Origin: an uncultured Bacteroidota bacterium
GTDB lineage: Bacteria > Bacteroidota > Bacteroidia > 2-12-FULL-35-15
DNA length: 52,550 nucleotides
Assembly (NCBI GenBank): GCA_903911435.1
Contig: CAIWDF010000054.1
Span: 1 to 52,550 of the forward strand
Direction of reading: 5' to 3'
A model generated the notes under the pieces. That model saw only the letters and a list, made by a program, of their open reading frames with translations, made no database searches and was not told where the DNA came from. Within the stretch, counting starts at the first letter, position 1, and every line of letters begins with the position of its first letter. The position numbers and the translations under genes were made by a program. Positions 40,502-52,320 of the stretch are shown one piece after another.

Positions 40502-43500
40502 CTATTTTGTAATTGTCACTTTTTGAGTTGTGCTGGACTTATCATTTTTTATTGAAACAAAATAACAACCATTTGCTTCTGACGAAAGATTGATAATTTG
40601 TTTTCCTCCAATAGCAACCTCTTTGTTCATCACAAGTTTTCCAATCACATTATAAACTGAAATGGAAGTATTCGTTGCATTACCCAAATCGAGAATGAAA
40701 GTTCCATCAGTTGAAGGATTTGGATAAATAGACACATTTTGTTCTGCTATAATATTGTCGATACCCACATAAACAAAGTTATAATCAGCAGATACAGCCG
40801 AACACCCGGATGCATTGGTCACCATAACGGTGTAGATACCCGATTGAGACACGGTTTCTGATTGATTTGTGCCTAGTGCAGTTGTTCCATAAAACCATTG
40901 ATAAGATGCAAATGTACCAGTGCTTAACACATTCGCTACAGCGCTAACAATTGGTGTAGGTGCTGGGTTCACAACTAATAACAAAGTGTCGCTATCAACT
41001 GTTTGAGCGGTAGTACAACCTAAACTACTAGTCAATTCGCAATATACTTGATAAGTTCCTGGAGGTATTGTTCCCGCTGGTACAAATAATGTTTGGCCTG
41101 TACCTACAGGACCCATATTTACGACATTCCAAACGTATGTTGGAGTGGTCCCATCATTTATTCCTGTTGCATGACCTGTTACATCCATATTTGCACATAT
41201 TGTCATAGAAGTAGGAATAGTAACACTTGGTGTAACAGGAGCTGAAGATGTAAGAATAGCAACATTAGAAGTTGTGGTTCCAAAGCTATTTGAAATTACA
41301 CAGTGATATATGTATCCAGAAAGGCCAGTAGTATTTAATATTCTCAAGGTATCGGTATCTACACCAGCATACACACTCGAATTGCTTATTGCTACGTAGC
41401 CCGATCCATTATCTTCTTCCCATTGATACGAAACCGCATCAGTAGCACCTACTATAAACATTGCTGTGCTACCATCACAAACTGAAGCATCGATTGGTTG
41501 AGAAGTGATTGCTGGTGAACCATCGAAATAAAAATCAGCCGAAACAGCTGTACATCCGAACGAATTACTCACATCAACAGAATAAGTTCCAGTTTGAGTT
41601 GCTGTTTCAGATTGGGTTGTTCCCATTGCAGCTGCTCCTAGGTACCATTGATAAGTATCGTAGGTAGACGTACTCAACACATTTGCAAGTGCCGAAACAA
41701 TTGGTATTGTTGGTGCAGGATTCACTACCAATAACATGGTATCACTATCAACTGTTTGTATTGTGGTACATCCTAAACTGCTTGTTAATTCGCAATACAC
41801 CTGATAACTTCCGACAGGAATTGTACCTGCAGGTACAAATAATGTTTGTCCAGTACCACCTGGTCCCATGCCTACCACATACCAAACATATGTTGGAGTA
41901 GCACCATCATTTAATCCTGTTGCAGTGCCAGTAACATCCATATTTTCGCAAATAGTTAACGAAGTTGGAATGCTTACACTTGGAGTAACTGGTGCCGACT
42001 CAGTTAATACAACTGAATTAGAAACTGTTGTTCCAAAACTATTAGTGATTACGCAATGATAAACATATCCTGACATGCCAGTTGAATTCAAAACGTTTAA
42101 CGTTTCGGTATCTACACCAGAATAAAAACTTGAATTGCTTATTGCAACAAATCCTGTTCCGTTATCTTCTTCCCATTGATAGGTTATCGCGTCAGTAGCA
42201 TTCAAAGTAAATACTGCTTGTGCTCCTGAACAAACTGAAGCATCTATAGGTTGAGTATTAATTATAGGAGAACCATCGAAAGAATAATTAGCTGACATGG
42301 CTGTGCAACCGAATGAATTACCAACTTGAACTGAATAAATTCCTGTTGAAGTAACTGTTTCTGATTGGTTAGTTCCTAAAGGACTTGCACCAAAATACCA
42401 TTGATAGGTATCGTTGGAGGAAGTGCTCAACACATTTGCAACAGCAGTTATCACTGGTATTGCTGGGGCAGGATTCACTATTACAGTCATGGTGTCGCTA
42501 TCAACTGTTTGCACAGTAACACAAGTTTCTGATACTGTTAATTCGCAATAAACTGAGTAGGTTCCAGGAATAATAGTTCCAGCAGGTATATAAAGTGATG
42601 GTCCATTTCCAACAGGACCTAAATTAATAACATTCCAAGTATAAGTTGGTGAAGCTCCATCATTGACTCCAGTGGCTACTCCCAAAACATCGTTGCCAGC
42701 GCAAAGTGTTAAAGAAGGAGGTATAGTAACACTTGGTGTAACAGGAGCATTGACAGTTAGTGTGGCGGATAATGTAGTTGCATTACCGTATCCATTGGTA
42801 ACAACACAGTGGTAAACATATCCTGTCATACCTGTAGTGTTCAAAATGATTAGTGAATCAGTATCCACCCCACTATAAACACTCGAATTACTTAGTGCAA
42901 CAAAACCAGTTCCATTGTCTTCTTCCCATTGATACGAAACCGCATTGCTAGCCACTGCAGAGAAGATAGCTGAACTCCCTTCACAAACAGAAAGGTTTTG
43001 AGGGTCACTGACAACAACAGGAAGCAAGGAAGTCGCATATCCTAATATATTTACATTATCTATACTAAATGTTCCAGTATTTGCTTCAGAATTCCATGCA
43101 TAAAATCGAAAAGTGATAGGTGTAGTAAGGTTACTAAAACTGCCTCCTGTTAATATTATCAAACTACCATTTTGGTTAGTACTAACATCTGCTGTTACGA
43201 AAAATTCATTCGTTCCTTCTATGCTTAAATTAGCATTTGCTGGTGATATCGCATTGGCAATATTCGAAGTAAAACCATCAACACTTGAACGAACTATATA
43301 AGAACGAATTCCTGTGCCTGAACGCCTTACAGAGAAACCAATCGTATCTAAGGATAATGAGTAACCTGCATCTGGGGAAAACGTAACTTCATAATATTCT
43401 GCTGTATCCATAGAACCTGTCATTTGAGAATACAAGGTATTTCCACTAACCGAACCTGCTGGCCAATTTGTAAAATTAAAACGACCTACTGTTCCTGTAG

Positions 43501-43690
43501 CAGGATTTGAAGGAGTGCCAATTGCAGAAAAACTTCCAAAAGTTACCCCCGTAGCTGTTGGAACAAAACTTGGATCGGTAGTGCCCGATGTGGTTTTTAC
43601 ACTATCAAAAGTGTAAGTAACATTAACTATTTGAGCGTTTAAACAAAAAGTTGAAATTGCAAACGCAATTAATAAAGTAATTTTTTTCAT
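40502..43690 (-). CDS. T9SS-secreted modular adhesin-like protein (three repeat modules)
   Basis: A 1062-residue secreted protein. The ATG at 43690 starts a clear signal peptide (MKKITLLIAFAISTFCLNA); the promoter at 43714-43721 excludes the earlier start. An N-terminal domain (about 20-220) is followed by three modules of about 250 residues. Each has Ig-like blocks marked by YQWEEDNGxGFVA, then VDxDxLxIxNTTG and YVYHCVVTN, then a PVTPSVTIPxSLTxC segment and an AVANVLST-type segment. A type A sorting domain ends it (VSIYPNPSTDGTFILDLG ... NGCYFVSIK). Compared with its paralog at 43856 it has two extra modules. Cys pairs per module may form disulfides. The ligand is unknown. Confidence 0.88.
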   Translation of the reverse strand: MKKITLLIAFAISTFCLNAQIVNVTYTFDSVKTTSGTTDPSFVPTATGVTFGSFSAIGTPSNPATGTVGRFNFTNWPAGSVSGNTLYSQMTGSMDTAEYYEVTFSPDAGYSLSLDTIGFSVRRSGTGIRSYIVRSSVDGFTSNIANAISPANANLSIEGTNEFFVTADVSTNQNGSLIILTGGSFSNLTTPITFRFYAWNSEANTGTFSIDNVNILGYATSLLPVVVSDPQNLSVCEGSSAIFSAVASNAVSYQWEEDNGTGFVALSNSSVYSGVDTDSLIILNTTGMTGYVYHCVVTNGYGNATTLSATLTVNAPVTPSVTIPPSLTLCAGNDVLGVATGVNDGASPTYTWNVINLGPVGNGPSLYIPAGTIIPGTYSVYCELTVSETCVTVQTVDSDTMTVIVNPAPAIPVITAVANVLSTSSNDTYQWYFGASPLGTNQSETVTSTGIYSVQVGNSFGCTAMSANYSFDGSPIINTQPIDASVCSGAQAVFTLNATDAITYQWEEDNGTGFVAISNSSFYSGVDTETLNVLNSTGMSGYVYHCVITNSFGTTVSNSVVLTESAPVTPSVSIPTSLTICENMDVTGTATGLNDGATPTYVWYVVGMGPGGTGQTLFVPAGTIPVGSYQVYCELTSSLGCTTIQTVDSDTMLLVVNPAPTIPIVSALANVLSTSTYDTYQWYLGAAAMGTTQSETATQTGTYSVDVSNSFGCTAVSADFYFDGSPAITSQPIDASVCDGSTAMFIVGATDAVSYQWEEDNGSGYVAISNSSVYAGVDTDTLRILNTTGLSGYIYHCVISNSFGTTTSNVAILTSSAPVTPSVTIPTSMTICANMDVTGHATGINDGTTPTYVWNVVNMGPVGTGQTLFVPAGTIPPGTYQVYCELTSSLGCTTAQTVDSDTLLLVVNPAPTPIVSAVANVLSTGTFASYQWFYGTTALGTNQSETVSQSGIYTVMVTNASGCSAVSADYNFVYVGIDNIIAEQNVSIYPNPSTDGTFILDLGNATNTSISVYNVIGKLVMNKEVAIGGKQIINLSSEANGCYFVSIKNDKSSTTQKVTITK
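40750..43010 (-). repeat. Three in-gene tandem modules of about 752-755 bp
   Basis: The SYQWEEDNG-coding block recurs at about 41410, 42162 and 42917, spacings of about 752 and 755 bp. The modules lie inside the coding frame of the long adhesin-like gene. Confidence 0.75.
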
Positions 43691-43713
43691 TTTAATGTGT
43701 TTTAAGATTTCCA

Positions 43714-43721
43714 CAAAAGTA
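43714..43721 (-). promoter_or_regulatory. -7 promoter element (TACTTTTG) of the long adhesin-like gene
   Basis: Minus-strand TACTTTTG, 23 bp before the chosen ATG at 43690. It overlaps the earlier in-frame start and so rules it out. Confidence 0.55.
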
Positions 43722-43798
43722 AGAATATTTGTGTAACAAAATTTATTTGTAGTTCATTTCAATTTAATTGATTTTTAAGAACGAATTAGTAAAAACAA

Positions 43799-43826
43799 AA
43801 ACGTCTCGCAATTTTGCGAGACGTTT
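43799..43826 (-). terminator. Terminator of the short T9SS adhesin-like gene
   Basis: A near-perfect 13-bp stem (AAACGTCTCGCAA / TTGCGAGACGTTT, 2-nt loop) followed on the minus strand by a T-rich tract. Confidence 0.75.
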
Positions 43827-43855
43827 CGTAATATATAACTGATTGGATTGGATGT

Positions 43856-45544
43856 TTATTTCGCAATCGTAATTTTATGTGTTGTATTCCCTTTATTGTT
43901 TTTTACAGAAATAAAATAAGAACCATTGGCACGTGAAGCTAGGTTGAGTGCATGCTTTCCGCCTGTTGCTATTTCTTCGCTCATTACTACTTTCCCAACA
44001 ATATCAAAAACAGTAATTGAAGTGGTGCTTGAAGTAGTGCCTAAATCAATTACAAATAAACCATCCGTTGAAGGATTAGGATAAACAGAAACAAATGAAT
44101 TAGAAGAAGCCTCATTGATTCCAACAAATACGAAGTTGTAATCAGCGGAAACAGCAGTACATCCAAATGTATTAGCCACCGATACGGTGTAGATACCCGA
44201 TTGATATACTGTATCCGATTGGTTGGTTCCTAATGCTGTTGTTCCATAATACCATTGATAAGTATCGTAAACATTGGTGCTTAGAATATTTGTAGTTTCG
44301 GTAATCACAGGAACTATTGGAGCTGGATTTACTACCAAGGTTAAGGTATCGCTATCAACAGTTTGAACGGTGGTACAACCCTCGCTACTTGTTAACTCGC
44401 AATAAACCTGATAAGTACTTGGAGGTATTGTACCTGCTGGAACAAACAATGATTGAGTAGAACCTACAGGTCCTAAGCCAATAAGATACCATGTAAACGA
44501 TGGTGTAGCTCCTTGGTTCACAGCAACAGCTGATCCTGCTAAATCGGTATTTGCACAAATGGTTAATGAAGTTGGTATGGTTACACTTGGAGTTACCGGA
44601 TTAGATTCTGTTAATAATGCAGCATAAGAAGTAGTACTTCCTGCTCCGTTTGTAACTACACAGTGATAATGATATCCTGATAGACCTGAAGTGTTTGAAA
44701 TTATTAAGGTATCATTATCAACACCTGAATAAACACCTGCATTAGATAATGCAACAAAACCAGTTCCGTTATCTTCTTCCCATTGATAGGTAGCAGCATT
44801 TGTTGCACCCACAATGAAAGTAGCAGTGCCACCAAAACAAGAGGTAACATCAGTTGGGTCGGTAATGATGATTGGAGCTGCTGAAGCGGCTAAACCAACA
44901 AATCTTACATTGTCAATACTAAATGTTCCTGTATTTGCTTCAGAATTCCATGCATAAAAACGAAAACTAATAGGGTTAGTAAGGCTACTGAAACTGCCCC
45001 CTGTTAATATTATCAAACTACCATTTTGGTTAGTACTAACATCTGCTGTTACGAAAAACTCATTCGTTCCTTCTATGCTTAAATTAGCATTTGCTGGTGA
45101 TATCGCATTGGCAATATTCGAAGTAAAACCATCAACACTTGAACGAACTACATAAGAACGAATTCCTGTGCCTGAACGCCTTACAGAGAAACCAATCGTA
45201 TCTAAGGATAATGAGTAACCTGCATCTGGGGAAAGAGTAACTTCATAATATTGTGTATCCGCTATAGCTCCCGTCATTTGAGAATAAAGTGTATTGCCAT
45301 TAGCTGAACCTGCTGGCCAATTGGTATAATTAAAACGACCTATTGTTCCAGTAGCAGGATTAGAAGGAGTGCCTATTGCAGAAAAACTTCCAAAAGTTAC
45401 CCCTGTAGCTGTTGGAACAAAACTTGGATCGGTAGTGCCCGATGTGGTTTTTACACTATCAAAAGTGTAAGTAACGTTAAACGATTGCGCGTTTAGGAAA
45501 AATGTTGAAATTGCGAAAGCAACTAATAAAGTAATTTTTTTCAT
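43856..45544 (-). CDS. T9SS-secreted modular adhesin-like protein (one repeat module)
   Basis: A 562-residue paralog of the protein encoded at 40502. The ATG at 45544 starts a signal peptide (MKKITLLVAFAISTFFLNA). The N-terminal domain (about 20-220) is nearly identical to the paralog's, even at many silent sites. It is followed by a single ~250-residue Ig-like module (YQWEEDNGTGFVALSNAGVY ... PVTPSVTIPTSLTICAN) and a type A sorting domain (VSVYPNPSTDGLFVIDLG ... NGSYFISVK). It lies directly upstream of the long copy and has its own promoter (45569-45576) and terminator. The length difference from the paralog equals two modules. Confidence 0.87.
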   Translation of the reverse strand: MKKITLLVAFAISTFFLNAQSFNVTYTFDSVKTTSGTTDPSFVPTATGVTFGSFSAIGTPSNPATGTIGRFNYTNWPAGSANGNTLYSQMTGAIADTQYYEVTLSPDAGYSLSLDTIGFSVRRSGTGIRSYVVRSSVDGFTSNIANAISPANANLSIEGTNEFFVTADVSTNQNGSLIILTGGSFSSLTNPISFRFYAWNSEANTGTFSIDNVRFVGLAASAAPIIITDPTDVTSCFGGTATFIVGATNAATYQWEEDNGTGFVALSNAGVYSGVDNDTLIISNTSGLSGYHYHCVVTNGAGSTTSYAALLTESNPVTPSVTIPTSLTICANTDLAGSAVAVNQGATPSFTWYLIGLGPVGSTQSLFVPAGTIPPSTYQVYCELTSSEGCTTVQTVDSDTLTLVVNPAPIVPVITETTNILSTNVYDTYQWYYGTTALGTNQSDTVYQSGIYTVSVANTFGCTAVSADYNFVFVGINEASSNSFVSVYPNPSTDGLFVIDLGTTSSTTSITVFDIVGKVVMSEEIATGGKHALNLASRANGSYFISVKNNKGNTTHKITIAK

Positions 45545-45568
45545 GGTTTTTATTTTATATTTATTGAG

Positions 45569-45576
45569 CAAAAGTA
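45569..45576 (-). promoter_or_regulatory. -7 promoter element (TACTTTTG) of the short adhesin-like gene
   Basis: Minus-strand TACTTTTG fits TAnnTTTG, 24 bp before the ATG at 45544 and overlapping an earlier in-frame start. Confidence 0.55.
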
Positions 45577-48100: not shown

Positions 48101-48180
48101 GCCCGGATGGCGGAATTGGTAGACGCGCTGGTCTCAAACACCTGTGGGAAACCGTGCCGGTTCGACTCCGGCTCCGGGTA
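48101..48180 (+). tRNA. tRNA-Leu (anticodon CAA)
   Basis: Acceptor stem GCCCGGA (48101-48107) pairs with TCCGGGT (48173-48179; one G-U), discriminator A48180, no encoded CCA. The D-arm is GGCGGAATTGGTAGACGC. The anticodon loop CTCAAAC (48133-48139) gives CAA (48135-48137). The variable arm is long, as in type II tRNAs, and the T-arm is GCCGG-TTCGACT-CCGGC. The anticodon stem CTGGT/ACCTG has one T-T mismatch, which folding programs may flag. The 3' half lies antisense to the end of the recombinase gene. A terminator hairpin (48184-48229) follows. Confidence 0.9.
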
Positions 48181-49765
48181 CAGAGCCGGACTTTTCGAAG
48201 AAAATTTGAGAAGTTCGGCTTTTATTTTTCTCCAAATCCCTTGCTAAATCTGCGATACAGAGGATCACTGAATTTACAACCGGGGTTCGATAATTATCTT
48301 TTTTAGCATCATATACCAAACCGTTCGGAAATAAGGTATTTTGCAAAATCTGTTTTTGGTAGAAATCTCCAGACTCCCATACAGGAGCGAGGTTTGAAGC
48401 TAATTTAAGAGAGTAATTTATCAGTTCTTTAGGGTTCGATAATTTTTTTTCGAGTGATTCAATTTGTTTCAAAATGGACTCTTTTTTTGCATTCATTTCT
48501 GCCGAAAATTCCTCGTAAATATCAAAACTTACATTTCCTAGGGCATGTCTTTTTCTCAAGTTGTAAAATTCAGCCTCTACTTCGTTTAGTTTTAAACCAA
48601 GCATTTTTTTCTCGCTGGTATTGCTTTCTGTTAAATTTTGCCAAGTATATCCCAATTGAATGCTCAACGGTTCTATAAAAGTGGAATCAATCGTATATGC
48701 CTTAAGTAAATCCTTAAATCTGTCGTGCATTATTTTAACACTCCGATTTATTTTCACCCCTTTTCTGTTCACTTTATAATAGTAAAGGCCTTTCTTCTTT
48801 ACTAAATAGCCTGTAAAGGGAGCACCACTATCCGCATCCTTTACAAAAATCTTTAACGGAAGATAATCATTCGCCTTATGACTACTGTACCCATCTGTTT
48901 TCTTTTGCTCATTTGCACTTAAAAATAAACTCTGTTCAATCAATGCAGGATGATTCCCTTTGATGACCTCGCCATTGAGTAAATTATGCGCCATAAAACC
49001 ACAATAGAAAGGATTCCTAAAAATTTCTGTCAATGTCTGTTTTGCCATTTTCATACCCAATCCATTCAACTTCCCAATAATTTGCTCATAGGTCATTCCC
49101 TTTGCACGCCAATTAAAAGCTAGGTTTATTAACTCCCCCTTTTCATTTATTATAATGGTTTGCTTTACGGCACCCTTAACAAATGAATAGCCAGTTGGTG
49201 CAGGACCAATCCATTCTCCCCTCAACAATTTTTCACGCATTCCGTCAATAGTCTTCTGTCTGCGCAAGTCATTGTCGTATTTTCCGAAAATAAATTGGAT
49301 GTTCTGTTGAAGGGTTCCTGAATGAGAATTAGTATCTATTGGTTGGGTAACAGCAACAATATTTACACCTGTTTTCTTCAGTTCACTTGCGATATAAATT
49401 GCACTATCTCCCGTTCTGCTGAAACGATCAAGGCTATATACTAAGATAAATGAGATCTTTGCTTTACTCGCTTTAACAAAATTGAGCATGCGGTTGAATT
49501 CTTTTCGCTCATCACTCTTTGCACTCTCAAATGTTCCTCCAAAGTAACCTTTGATGACAAATTGATTTTTTTGTGCATATTCTGTACAGAACTTTTTCTG
49601 CCATTCCAGACTTTGGTTGGTATCCATCTGCTCCTTGGAACTAACCCTTGTGTATATTACACAATTTTGAACACCGATTATTTTAGCGTCATTGCTTTTA
49701 CCCTTGGCAAACTGATTAAGCAACATTTCGTTTTTTGATATTTTCTTTTCCTTCATCTTTATCAT
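48134..49765 (-). CDS. Large serine recombinase (integrase)
   Basis: A 543-residue serine recombinase. The catalytic domain (about 33-175) has nucleophile Ser42 in CVIYTRVSSKEQ and Arg117 in SLDRFSR. The recombinase domain follows (about 180-290, GPAPTGYSFVKGAVKQTIII; MTYEQIIGKLNGLGMKMAKQ). A zinc-ribbon-like stretch (about 305-342) keeps the shape of the family (GAPFTGYLVKKKGLYYYKVN), but its four expected Cys appear as D310, S313, V332 and V337. A coiled coil spans about 385-445. The last 15 residues (VPGAGVEPARFPTGV) are encoded antisense to tRNA-Leu and the stop lies in the anticodon loop, so its 3' end depends on the integration site. Fitness and activity are unproven. Confidence 0.9.
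   Translation of the reverse strand: MIKMKEKKISKNEMLLNQFAKGKSNDAKIIGVQNCVIYTRVSSKEQMDTNQSLEWQKKFCTEYAQKNQFVIKGYFGGTFESAKSDERKEFNRMLNFVKASKAKISFILVYSLDRFSRTGDSAIYIASELKKTGVNIVAVTQPIDTNSHSGTLQQNIQFIFGKYDNDLRRQKTIDGMREKLLRGEWIGPAPTGYSFVKGAVKQTIIINEKGELINLAFNWRAKGMTYEQIIGKLNGLGMKMAKQTLTEIFRNPFYCGFMAHNLLNGEVIKGNHPALIEQSLFLSANEQKKTDGYSSHKANDYLPLKIFVKDADSGAPFTGYLVKKKGLYYYKVNRKGVKINRSVKIMHDRFKDLLKAYTIDSTFIEPLSIQLGYTWQNLTESNTSEKKMLGLKLNEVEAEFYNLRKRHALGNVSFDIYEEFSAEMNAKKESILKQIESLEKKLSNPKELINYSLKLASNLAPVWESGDFYQKQILQNTLFPNGLVYDAKKDNYRTPVVNSVILCIADLARDLEKNKSRTSQIFFEKSGSVPGAGVEPARFPTGV
48176..48229. repeat. Candidate attachment site/terminator, tRNA-proximal copy
   Basis: A 54-bp sequence beginning GGGTAC at the tRNA 3' end. 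It matches 52125-52178 in 50 of 54 positions. It contains a stem AGCCGGACTT/AAGTTCGGCT (one G-U) and ends TTTTATTTTT, so it also looks like the tRNA terminator. The recombinase frame reads through it as KNKSRTSQIFFEK. Confidence 0.7.
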
Positions 49766-50293: not shown

Positions 50294-51841
50294 TTAAACC
50301 TTAGCCACGGGCTTCCCTTTAATTCCTTGCTTTACAAGATGAGCTAAAAAGCTTGTAAATGGCTCAATATCATTTCCTACACTAGCTTTTTCTAATGCCG
50401 CCATATAATTTTTTCGTTCTTCAACAGGAATAACAGTCCATGGATAACCTCCGGAAGCCAACATCACATTTAACATAAACCGTCCCATCCTTCCATTTCC
50501 ATCCATATAAGGATGTATATAAACAAATATAAAATGTCCAAGAACTGCTCTAACAGAGGCCTCTTGTTCATTGCTTAATAATTCAAATAATAATGGCATT
50601 GCATCACGAACAGCATCTACATTTAGTGGTACGTGTTTAGATTGACTTATATATACTTGAGCATTTCTGTAACCTGCCAAATCGGATGGTTTTAATAGAC
50701 CAACCGTTACACTTGGCGCAAATAACTCCCTATACCAATCTCCATGGTCAATATCAGTAACCTGTCCTGAATTCTTACCAATAAGTATTTTTTTTATACT
50801 CTTTCTAACTTCCTGTGTTGCCAGCCAATAACCCCTTGCAGCCATCGCATCTCTTTGTTGTTTGTCCTCCTTATTTTTTTTGACATCCCAATTACCACTT
50901 TTAACTCGCTCTATTAATTCAGGTGTTACCTTATATTGTTCAATTGATAATGAGTGATAAGCATCTGTTAAATAAATATCTTCCACCATTTTCATATATT
51001 TTGCATGGTCTTCAGGTAAACCCGGAGCTTTTGGAAAATGATTAATGACTACTTCTCTCATCGAATGCCACATTAATTTTATTCTGTTCACATAAGGAGA
51101 TCTTTCTCTGGAAGATAAATTAACTGGAGTTTTCGTTTCAAATGGATCGGTTTCTCTAACATCATATCCCGCAGCCTTCATGGTTTTTACAATATCCTCA
51201 GCGATTCTATCCTGCCCTACGTTTCTAAATGCCCCAGCTAACCTACCTGCAACTGTGCTATGCCCTCCATCTAGAAGAATTGATAGTATATCTGATGAAT
51301 TACCTATCATTGTGAGTGCTGTTCTTATATCTGTAGCACTTTTAATAAACATTGTAGGCGAGCAATGCACAAGAGAAGATGGAAGTGTTAACATTCGTAT
51401 CCCATTTATCTCTTGGATTTCAGCACTTTTTACTAAAGGGGATTTTATACTAAATAATGAAGTATGATGTGGTAAAGGTGTTTGAGAATTTACTCCTTGT
51501 GTTGATCTAATAATTAATTGTTGAGGAACAGTCCAATTTCCAGAATGTATTTGCAATGATTGTTCCGGAGAAATGCAATATGTTGCAGCATATCTATCAG
51601 ATAAATATCTTGCACAAAAGTGCCAATATGATGCATACCATGAAGTGCTATCACCCTGTTGTTCGTTTGAAGGAACTGATAAATACCACCCCTTCATTAC
51701 TTCACTTAAAAAGCCATTTTTTGACAAACGCTCTCTATGTACTCGGCTTAATTCAGACGCTTTAATTGCCATAATACCCCTATCTTGAAGCTCCGTTAAT
51801 GCCTCGAGGGATTCTGCTAATTTTTCGCTTGGTGTTGCCAT
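50294..51841 (-). CDS. AbiEi-like/Fic fusion protein
   Basis: A 515-residue two-part protein. The N-terminal part (about 1-220) is AbiEi-like: a winged-helix start (LQDRGIMAIKASELSRVHRE, NGFLSEVMKGWYLSVPSNEQ) and a body with ATYCISPEQSLQIHSGNWTV, as in type IV antitoxin/transcription regulators. The C-terminal part (about 260-515) is a Fic domain with the active motif HPYMDGNGRMGR (H443 to R454), normally used to AMPylate target proteins. An inhibitory-helix motif SLSIE (S297, E301) precedes it, with Gln where Gly/Asn is usual. So the protein may carry both regulatory and toxin functions. Direct repeats upstream (51865-51957) could be its operator. It is the cargo of the putative element. Confidence 0.82.
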   Translation of the reverse strand: MATPSEKLAESLEALTELQDRGIMAIKASELSRVHRERLSKNGFLSEVMKGWYLSVPSNEQQGDSTSWYASYWHFCARYLSDRYAATYCISPEQSLQIHSGNWTVPQQLIIRSTQGVNSQTPLPHHTSLFSIKSPLVKSAEIQEINGIRMLTLPSSLVHCSPTMFIKSATDIRTALTMIGNSSDILSILLDGGHSTVAGRLAGAFRNVGQDRIAEDIVKTMKAAGYDVRETDPFETKTPVNLSSRERSPYVNRIKLMWHSMREVVINHFPKAPGLPEDHAKYMKMVEDIYLTDAYHSLSIEQYKVTPELIERVKSGNWDVKKNKEDKQQRDAMAARGYWLATQEVRKSIKKILIGKNSGQVTDIDHGDWYRELFAPSVTVGLLKPSDLAGYRNAQVYISQSKHVPLNVDAVRDAMPLLFELLSNEQEASVRAVLGHFIFVYIHPYMDGNGRMGRFMLNVMLASGGYPWTVIPVEERKNYMAALEKASVGNDIEPFTSFLAHLVKQGIKGKPVAKV

Positions 51842-52124: not shown

Positions 52125-52178
52125 GGGTACAAAGCCGAACTTTTCGAAGAAATTCTGAGAAGTTCGGCTTTTATTTTT
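52125..52178. repeat. Candidate attachment site/terminator, distal copy
   Basis: Matches 48176-48229 at 50 of 54 positions: same GGGTACA lead, same stem (AGCCGAACTT/AAGTTCGGCT, perfect here) and same T-rich tail. No tRNA precedes it, only a GTTCGAC word 21 bp upstream. The minus-strand frame is conserved (KNKSRTSQNFFEK). It marks the probable right end of the element. Confidence 0.7.
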
Positions 52179-52320
52179 AACAAAAAAACAATTCGGCAAT
52201 TGCGCAGTAGGCAATTGTTCAATTGTTCGAACAAACGAACATCTGAACATTCGAACGATAGAATATCGAAGTGTCGCAATAAAAAAGCCCCTCACATTTC
52301 TGCTCAGGGATTTTTCTAAT

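Follow-up and report, generated by a model that had tools for sequence, protein, structure and literature searches.

AbiEi of S. agalactiae and Rv2827c, both of type IV toxin-antitoxin systems, repress their own promoters via 23-bp sites (PMC7319586). Among Fic proteins, CccR represses its own promoter via its DNA-binding domain (PMC9755527), and Sofic (SoFic, SO_4266) has been reported as an anti-phage toxin (PMC12249575). Here we describe a single gene that combines an AbiEi-like half with a Fic half, found in a stretch of 52,550 nucleotides from an uncultured Bacteroidota bacterium (contig CAIWDF010000054.1; this whole stretch is the window). In open-licence literature no description of the Fic/AbiEi-like fusion or of the repeat array before it was found, and database annotation of its homologs reads merely "Fic family protein". 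Our findings favor, as the probable reading, a one-gene, self-controlling Fic AMP-transferase that is carried as cargo by a small integrative element and binds its own array. The features of the gene and its array are as follows:

50294..51841, minus strand: AbiEi-like/Fic fusion gene, ATG start, 515 aa
51860..51955, minus strand: four 24-bp direct repeats just upstream of the ATG, proposed operator (ATTTCGCGCAACAACCTAATTTTA, ACACAGCGGCATAACCTAATTTAA, AAACAGCCTTAAAAGCTAATTATT, ACACAACAGAATAACCTAACGTAT)
51662..51841, minus strand: winged-helix subdomain of the AbiEi-like half (residues 1-60)
51473..51520, minus strand: beta-hairpin and loop of the second AbiEi subdomain (residues 108-123), containing residue 117
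50939..51007, minus strand: inhibitory helix, class II Fic (residues 279-301, E301 invariant)
50480..50515, minus strand: Fic motif HPYMDGNGRMGR (residues 443-454)

The 515-aa frame is real and no chance ORF, since full-length homologs at roughly 36-76% identity occur in many genomes and plasmids. The protein matches the Fic family of Pfam (PF02661; E 3.9e-11; 44.1 bits, cut-off 24), and its H443-R454 stretch fits HxFx(D/E)GNGRxxR with Tyr for Phe; N-terminal to it, SLSIEQ (residues 297-302) provides the inhibitory (S/T)xxxE(G/N) motif. The earlier note had pointed out both motifs, with Gln302 after the inhibitory E301, and both contain invariant residues: across the alignment of 89 full-length proteins S297, L298, S299, I300, E301, H443, P444, G448-R451, and R454 do not vary. 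Most relatives have Gly directly behind E301 and others have Lys or Arg; Gln occurs there in the window protein only. In the AlphaFold model of the full protein (89 sequences; mean pLDDT 93.4, pTM 0.91) the Fic half superposes best on FICD/HYPE (Z 23.8, 217 residues, rmsd 2.5) and more poorly on SoFic (Z 19.5). FICD is also the nearest solved chain by sequence and has the same N-terminal inhibitory helix, its TVAIE aligning with SLSIE; yet the window protein lacks the TPR and membrane parts of FICD, and is bacterial, mobile, and equipped with a predicted DNA-binding half. Given its intact class II residues and Fic fold, this half looks active, as had been proposed, and we infer an intact class II Fic enzyme for which AMP transfer is predicted. 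SoFic and CccR likewise join a class II Fic domain to a DNA-binding domain. In these proteins, however, the winged helix is C-terminal, whereas the window protein has an N-terminal AbiEi-type region and nothing of that size after the Fic domain, the last Fic helix of the model ending 8 residues before the C-terminus. The PADLOC SoFic model matches the window protein at model positions 54-264 of 361 only, and among the small ORFs beside homologs no conserved downstream gene like AS1 was found.

The N-terminal half has no match in Pfam or NCBIfam, the Pfam AbiEi models recognise it in none of the 89 family members, and PADLOC AbiEi models give weak matches to three members at most (E ~0.004). 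Modelled separately (residues 1-246, pLDDT 92.7), this half aligns with Rv2827c (PDB 1zel; Z 10.8 over 219 residues) and with S. agalactiae AbiEi (PDB 6y8q; Z 9.1; Foldseek 1.4e-5), all further rows of the fold search having Z below 8. Thus, as judged from the model, the half has an AbiEi-type fold (residues 1-240), in line with the proposal that structure prediction was to check. Common descent with AbiEi would rest on fold and layout, the sequence similarity being weak: a profile comparison with AbiEi_4 proteins (hhalign) is co-linear over residues 12-160 at E 0.013 and a probability of 3.3%. Among 296 genomes, we noticed no case of this half joined to an effector other than Fic. The likeness to AbiEi and Rv2827c extends to repeated sites of 23-24 bp before the own gene, but the window protein is fused to Fic and has no AbiEii nucleotidyltransferase partner. 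The operators also differ in form, 23-bp inverted repeats in the type IV systems against gapless head-to-tail 24-bp direct repeats in the window, a point that we count against the explanation favored here.

The array is a property of the family. In the last 130 bp upstream, the best self-match falls at a lag of 24 or 48 in 81 of the 85 loci with enough upstream sequence (window included), and in 76 of the 85 it exceeds all 60 dinucleotide-preserving shuffles. At a fixed cut-off (at least 30 of 48 positions matching, period 24 or 48), arrays precede 66/85 homologs, in several phyla, versus none of the 673 control regions taken upstream of other genes at these loci. Most loci have three to five units, and the array ends a median of 19 bp before the ATG; the layout recurs, with a period of 23 or 24, in most of an additional set of loci, from plasmids and elsewhere, that reaches down to 36% identity. 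Such arrays are absent before 16 genes with a Pfam AbiEi_4 domain and before 15 Fic-only genes. Within the genome of the window the unit occurs only before the Fic fusion gene, other matches being at background level, and a wider regulon was therefore rejected. Each unit combines a moderately conserved stretch, roughly ACAACA, with a core at columns 9-19, whose columns 14 and 15 stay the same inside a locus (0.89 and 0.94) but change from one locus to another (0.26 and 0.58). A repeat peptide was also considered; the array codes for none, since no open frame runs through 36 of 77 arrays, and in just 5 is the reading frame of the gene open. The array is specific evidence for the self-regulation that the earlier note had put forward as reasonable.

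Residues of the protein covary with bases of the array. In a screen by mutual information corrected for column averages (515 residues by 24 repeat columns; effective number ~50), the top-ranked pairs were residue 119 with column 14 (Z 13.0) and residue 117 with column 14 (Z 12.3). Residues 132 and 131 with column 15, and the wing residues 49 and 50 with columns 13 and 9, also stand high in this ranking, on mutual information only, as do several unexplained pairs. Arg117 is accompanied by G14 in 21 of 21 loci, while G14 is found in 6 of the 86 loci without Arg117 (107 loci); Arg contacting guanine is a common contact. These pairs come from Pseudomonadota, Acidobacteriota, Thermodesulfobacteriota, and Bacteroidota, and three of the loci (L004, L060, and L164) lay outside the discovery set. 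R117 changes 12 times on the best tree, for which the Fic half alone was used. As well-supported branches yield only three independent pairs (2 for, 0 against), too few for a test, we relied on tree simulation: with the base evolving independently, none of 100,000 simulations reached the observed link (largest phi 0.62 vs 0.85). K119 reading C14 was tried as well (counts of 19/23 vs 16/84) and is not claimed, because the independent pairs on the tree split about 2 to 2. Thus, a single residue-base pair passed the tree test, and the window protein itself has Val117 and stands outside this pairing; both facts are counted against our explanation. The predicted model places residue 117 in the loop between strands 108-113 and 119-123, which form a beta-hairpin of the second AbiEi subdomain; this residue probably reads the array. 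Separately, in an alphaproteobacterial plasmid branch (L165, L169-L173, and L177) Asn or Cys replaces Arg at residue 112 and the repeat core ends TTG/GTG-like instead of TAA; residue 112 is a possible second specificity position.

Together, the array and the covariation of residue 117 suggest an enzyme that both binds its own gene and controls it. In our proposal, the AbiEi-like half recognises the direct repeats of 24 bp, probably with one protomer bound per unit, and the hairpin loop around residue 117, perhaps with the wing, would read the locus-specific core of each repeat. The bound protein would repress its own transcription, and under such autorepression the enzyme would stay scarce. 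The inhibitory helix, with E301 set against R454, would hold the Fic half off until displaced by a signal; once released, the Fic half would modify a cellular target and slow growth. DNA as the binding partner, repression, AMPylation, and toxicity are the steps that we infer here; as to the trigger and the benefit, be it element upkeep or phage defence, we offer a guess. Computation yields two predicted folds, intact catalytic and inhibitory residues, a family-wide array, the covariation of residue 117, and signs of mobility, and by analogy with AbiEi, Rv2827c, and CccR the protein is most likely a repressor bound to its own array, its Fic half restrained by the inhibitory helix. A bolder version appears unlikely to us: the array-bound protein would be kept inactive, with the DNA itself as the antitoxin in a one-gene toxin system, and an active AMP-transferase would be freed directly once the array is lost or diluted. 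Replication, excision of the element, or DNA damage driven by phage might then bring this about, at the same low probability.

The self-controlling enzyme that we favor appears to travel on an element bounded by these features:

48101..48181, plus strand: tRNA-Leu(CAA), likely integration site
48134..49765, minus strand: large serine recombinase, likely integrase of the element
48176..48236, plus strand: left 61-bp direct repeat, putative att site; begins within the final bases of tRNA-Leu
52125..52185, plus strand: right 61-bp direct repeat, putative att site

The two 61-bp repeats are 89% identical to each other, and the genome holds no third copy. Direct repeats that enclose a recombinase at the 3' end of a tRNA are the arrangement of an integrative element, and the Fic fusion gene and the serine recombinase likely form a mobile element of ~3.9 kb at tRNA-Leu. 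Sister genomes have the same tRNA-Leu without the element; the right flank is unmatched, the contig ending 365 bp past the element. The last codons of the recombinase frame cross the left repeat into the tRNA gene on the opposite strand (48134-48236), and since the frame runs through the repeat, excision would alter the C-terminal end of the recombinase. In another genome of the genus (L219, G396:C16:48900-60000), the same tRNA-Leu precedes the remnant tail of a related serine recombinase along with unrelated cargo, namely a peptidase/ABC exporter, a radical-SAM-like gene, and an ATP-grasp-like gene, perhaps a peptide-product cluster; this suggests that the tRNA-Leu locus is an integration hotspot. 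Elsewhere in the window (40502-45571), two adjacent paralogous secreted proteins of 1070 and 571 aa are nearly identical in their first parts and carry internal repeats and a sorting-type domain at the C-terminus, which suggests that the pair arose by recent duplication.

The distribution of the family is patchy. Among the 19 genomes of the genus (window genome included), only the window genome and G407 have a full-length or nearly full-length copy, and the N-terminal half is present in 18 of 296 Bacteroidota genomes. Matches are spread over 171 plasmid records, with E below 1e-60 for 77 (40 typed as conjugative), and eight viral contigs carry full-length copies. On four related viral contigs (L145-L148), the gene is accessory cargo flanked by apparent phage structural genes, which run on the other strand. 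Homologs split by frameshift or truncated (L015/L198 in G090, L016 in G213, and L017 in G238) point to frequent gene decay. The density of tRNA genes in the first 3 kb around a homolog is 6-7 times that at 3-10 kb (15 in 461 kb vs 4 in 827 kb), and recombinases make up at least 11 of the 138 nearest neighbours versus 2 of the 102 far genes (6.5-10 kb away). The 80 genome loci of the survey are the best-scoring ones, and distant branches are therefore under-sampled. The occurrence of full-length homologs in other phyla, which the earlier note had taken to suggest transfer, is borne out together with a mobile distribution.

The neighbourhood survey proposed alongside gave a split answer, with enrichment in tRNA genes and recombinases and none in defence genes. 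In PADLOC, 65 families were matched among the 138 near genes and 53 among the 102 far genes, which shows no excess close to the gene over the far genes, themselves still within 10 kb; over this range the suggested association with defence genes is unsupported, and we count this against the explanation favored here. No AbiEii nucleotidyltransferase partner recurs in the 88 loci and the window, and the window itself has none; no neighbour gene recurs across most of these loci either. Comparison of 483 small ORFs within 350 bp revealed no conserved one beside the gene, the sole clusters of three or four loci coming from near-identical viral contigs. The label "antitoxin-like" thus stands for the fold but not for a partner, and, with no conserved small partner and no recurring neighbour, the module is one gene and its array. 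On two plasmids, Aminobacter pSR7 (L165) and Variovorax plasmid 3 (L175), the gene lies close to a second Fic gene, with a HipA-domain gene also nearby in the latter. Could the protein be mainly a housekeeping-type or regulatory Fic enzyme, an AMPylator or deAMPylator like FICD, that is autoregulated on mobile DNA and is neither toxic nor defensive? The nearest fold is indeed FICD, not the known defence protein SoFic, homologs show no excess of defence genes beside them, and in Pseudoalteromonas the gene stands singly among metabolic genes. We nevertheless judge this improbable in view of the patchy occurrence, the carriage on plasmids and viral contigs, and the decayed copies.

The array might also act as RNA. 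Type III toxin-antitoxin loci of the ToxIN kind have tandem repeats directly before a toxin-like gene, and here a transcribed repeat leader, bound by the AbiEi-like half, would restrain the toxin in a one-gene analogue of such loci. In Bacteroidota, a -7-like promoter box lies near the upstream array edge in 10 of 33 loci (1.2 expected), so that the array may be partly transcribed in some of them, and the residue covariation is as compatible with RNA as with DNA. However, in other loci the box lies inside or after the array, and folding is weak, with no marked excess stability (mean z only -0.8, 9% of leaders below -2) and none of the structured-RNA signal of type III loci, whose toxin is an endoribonuclease and not a Fic enzyme. 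AbiEi-type folds, moreover, are known DNA binders (PMC7319586), and an RNA array seems to us decidedly unlikely. It is very improbable that the repeats belong to the mobile element and precede the gene by coincidence: iterons and recombination arms do occur as tandem direct repeats of ~20 bp, and the gene is on a likely mobile element, but the array keeps the same pre-start position in homologs without shared neighbours, on chromosomes, plasmids, and viral contigs, and it covaries with residue 117.

Fic proteins whose control is unexplained are common, and the fusion family described here spans several phyla and many plasmids. For most of its members, a candidate binding site is already at hand in the array, and the covariation singles out the probable reading residue, so that autoregulation and binding specificity are directly testable. 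Our findings also suggest a loop of the second domain as the part with which AbiEi-type folds may read bases, a point that can be checked in the classical type IV systems. Should array binding hold the enzyme in check, this would be a new means of restraining a toxin.
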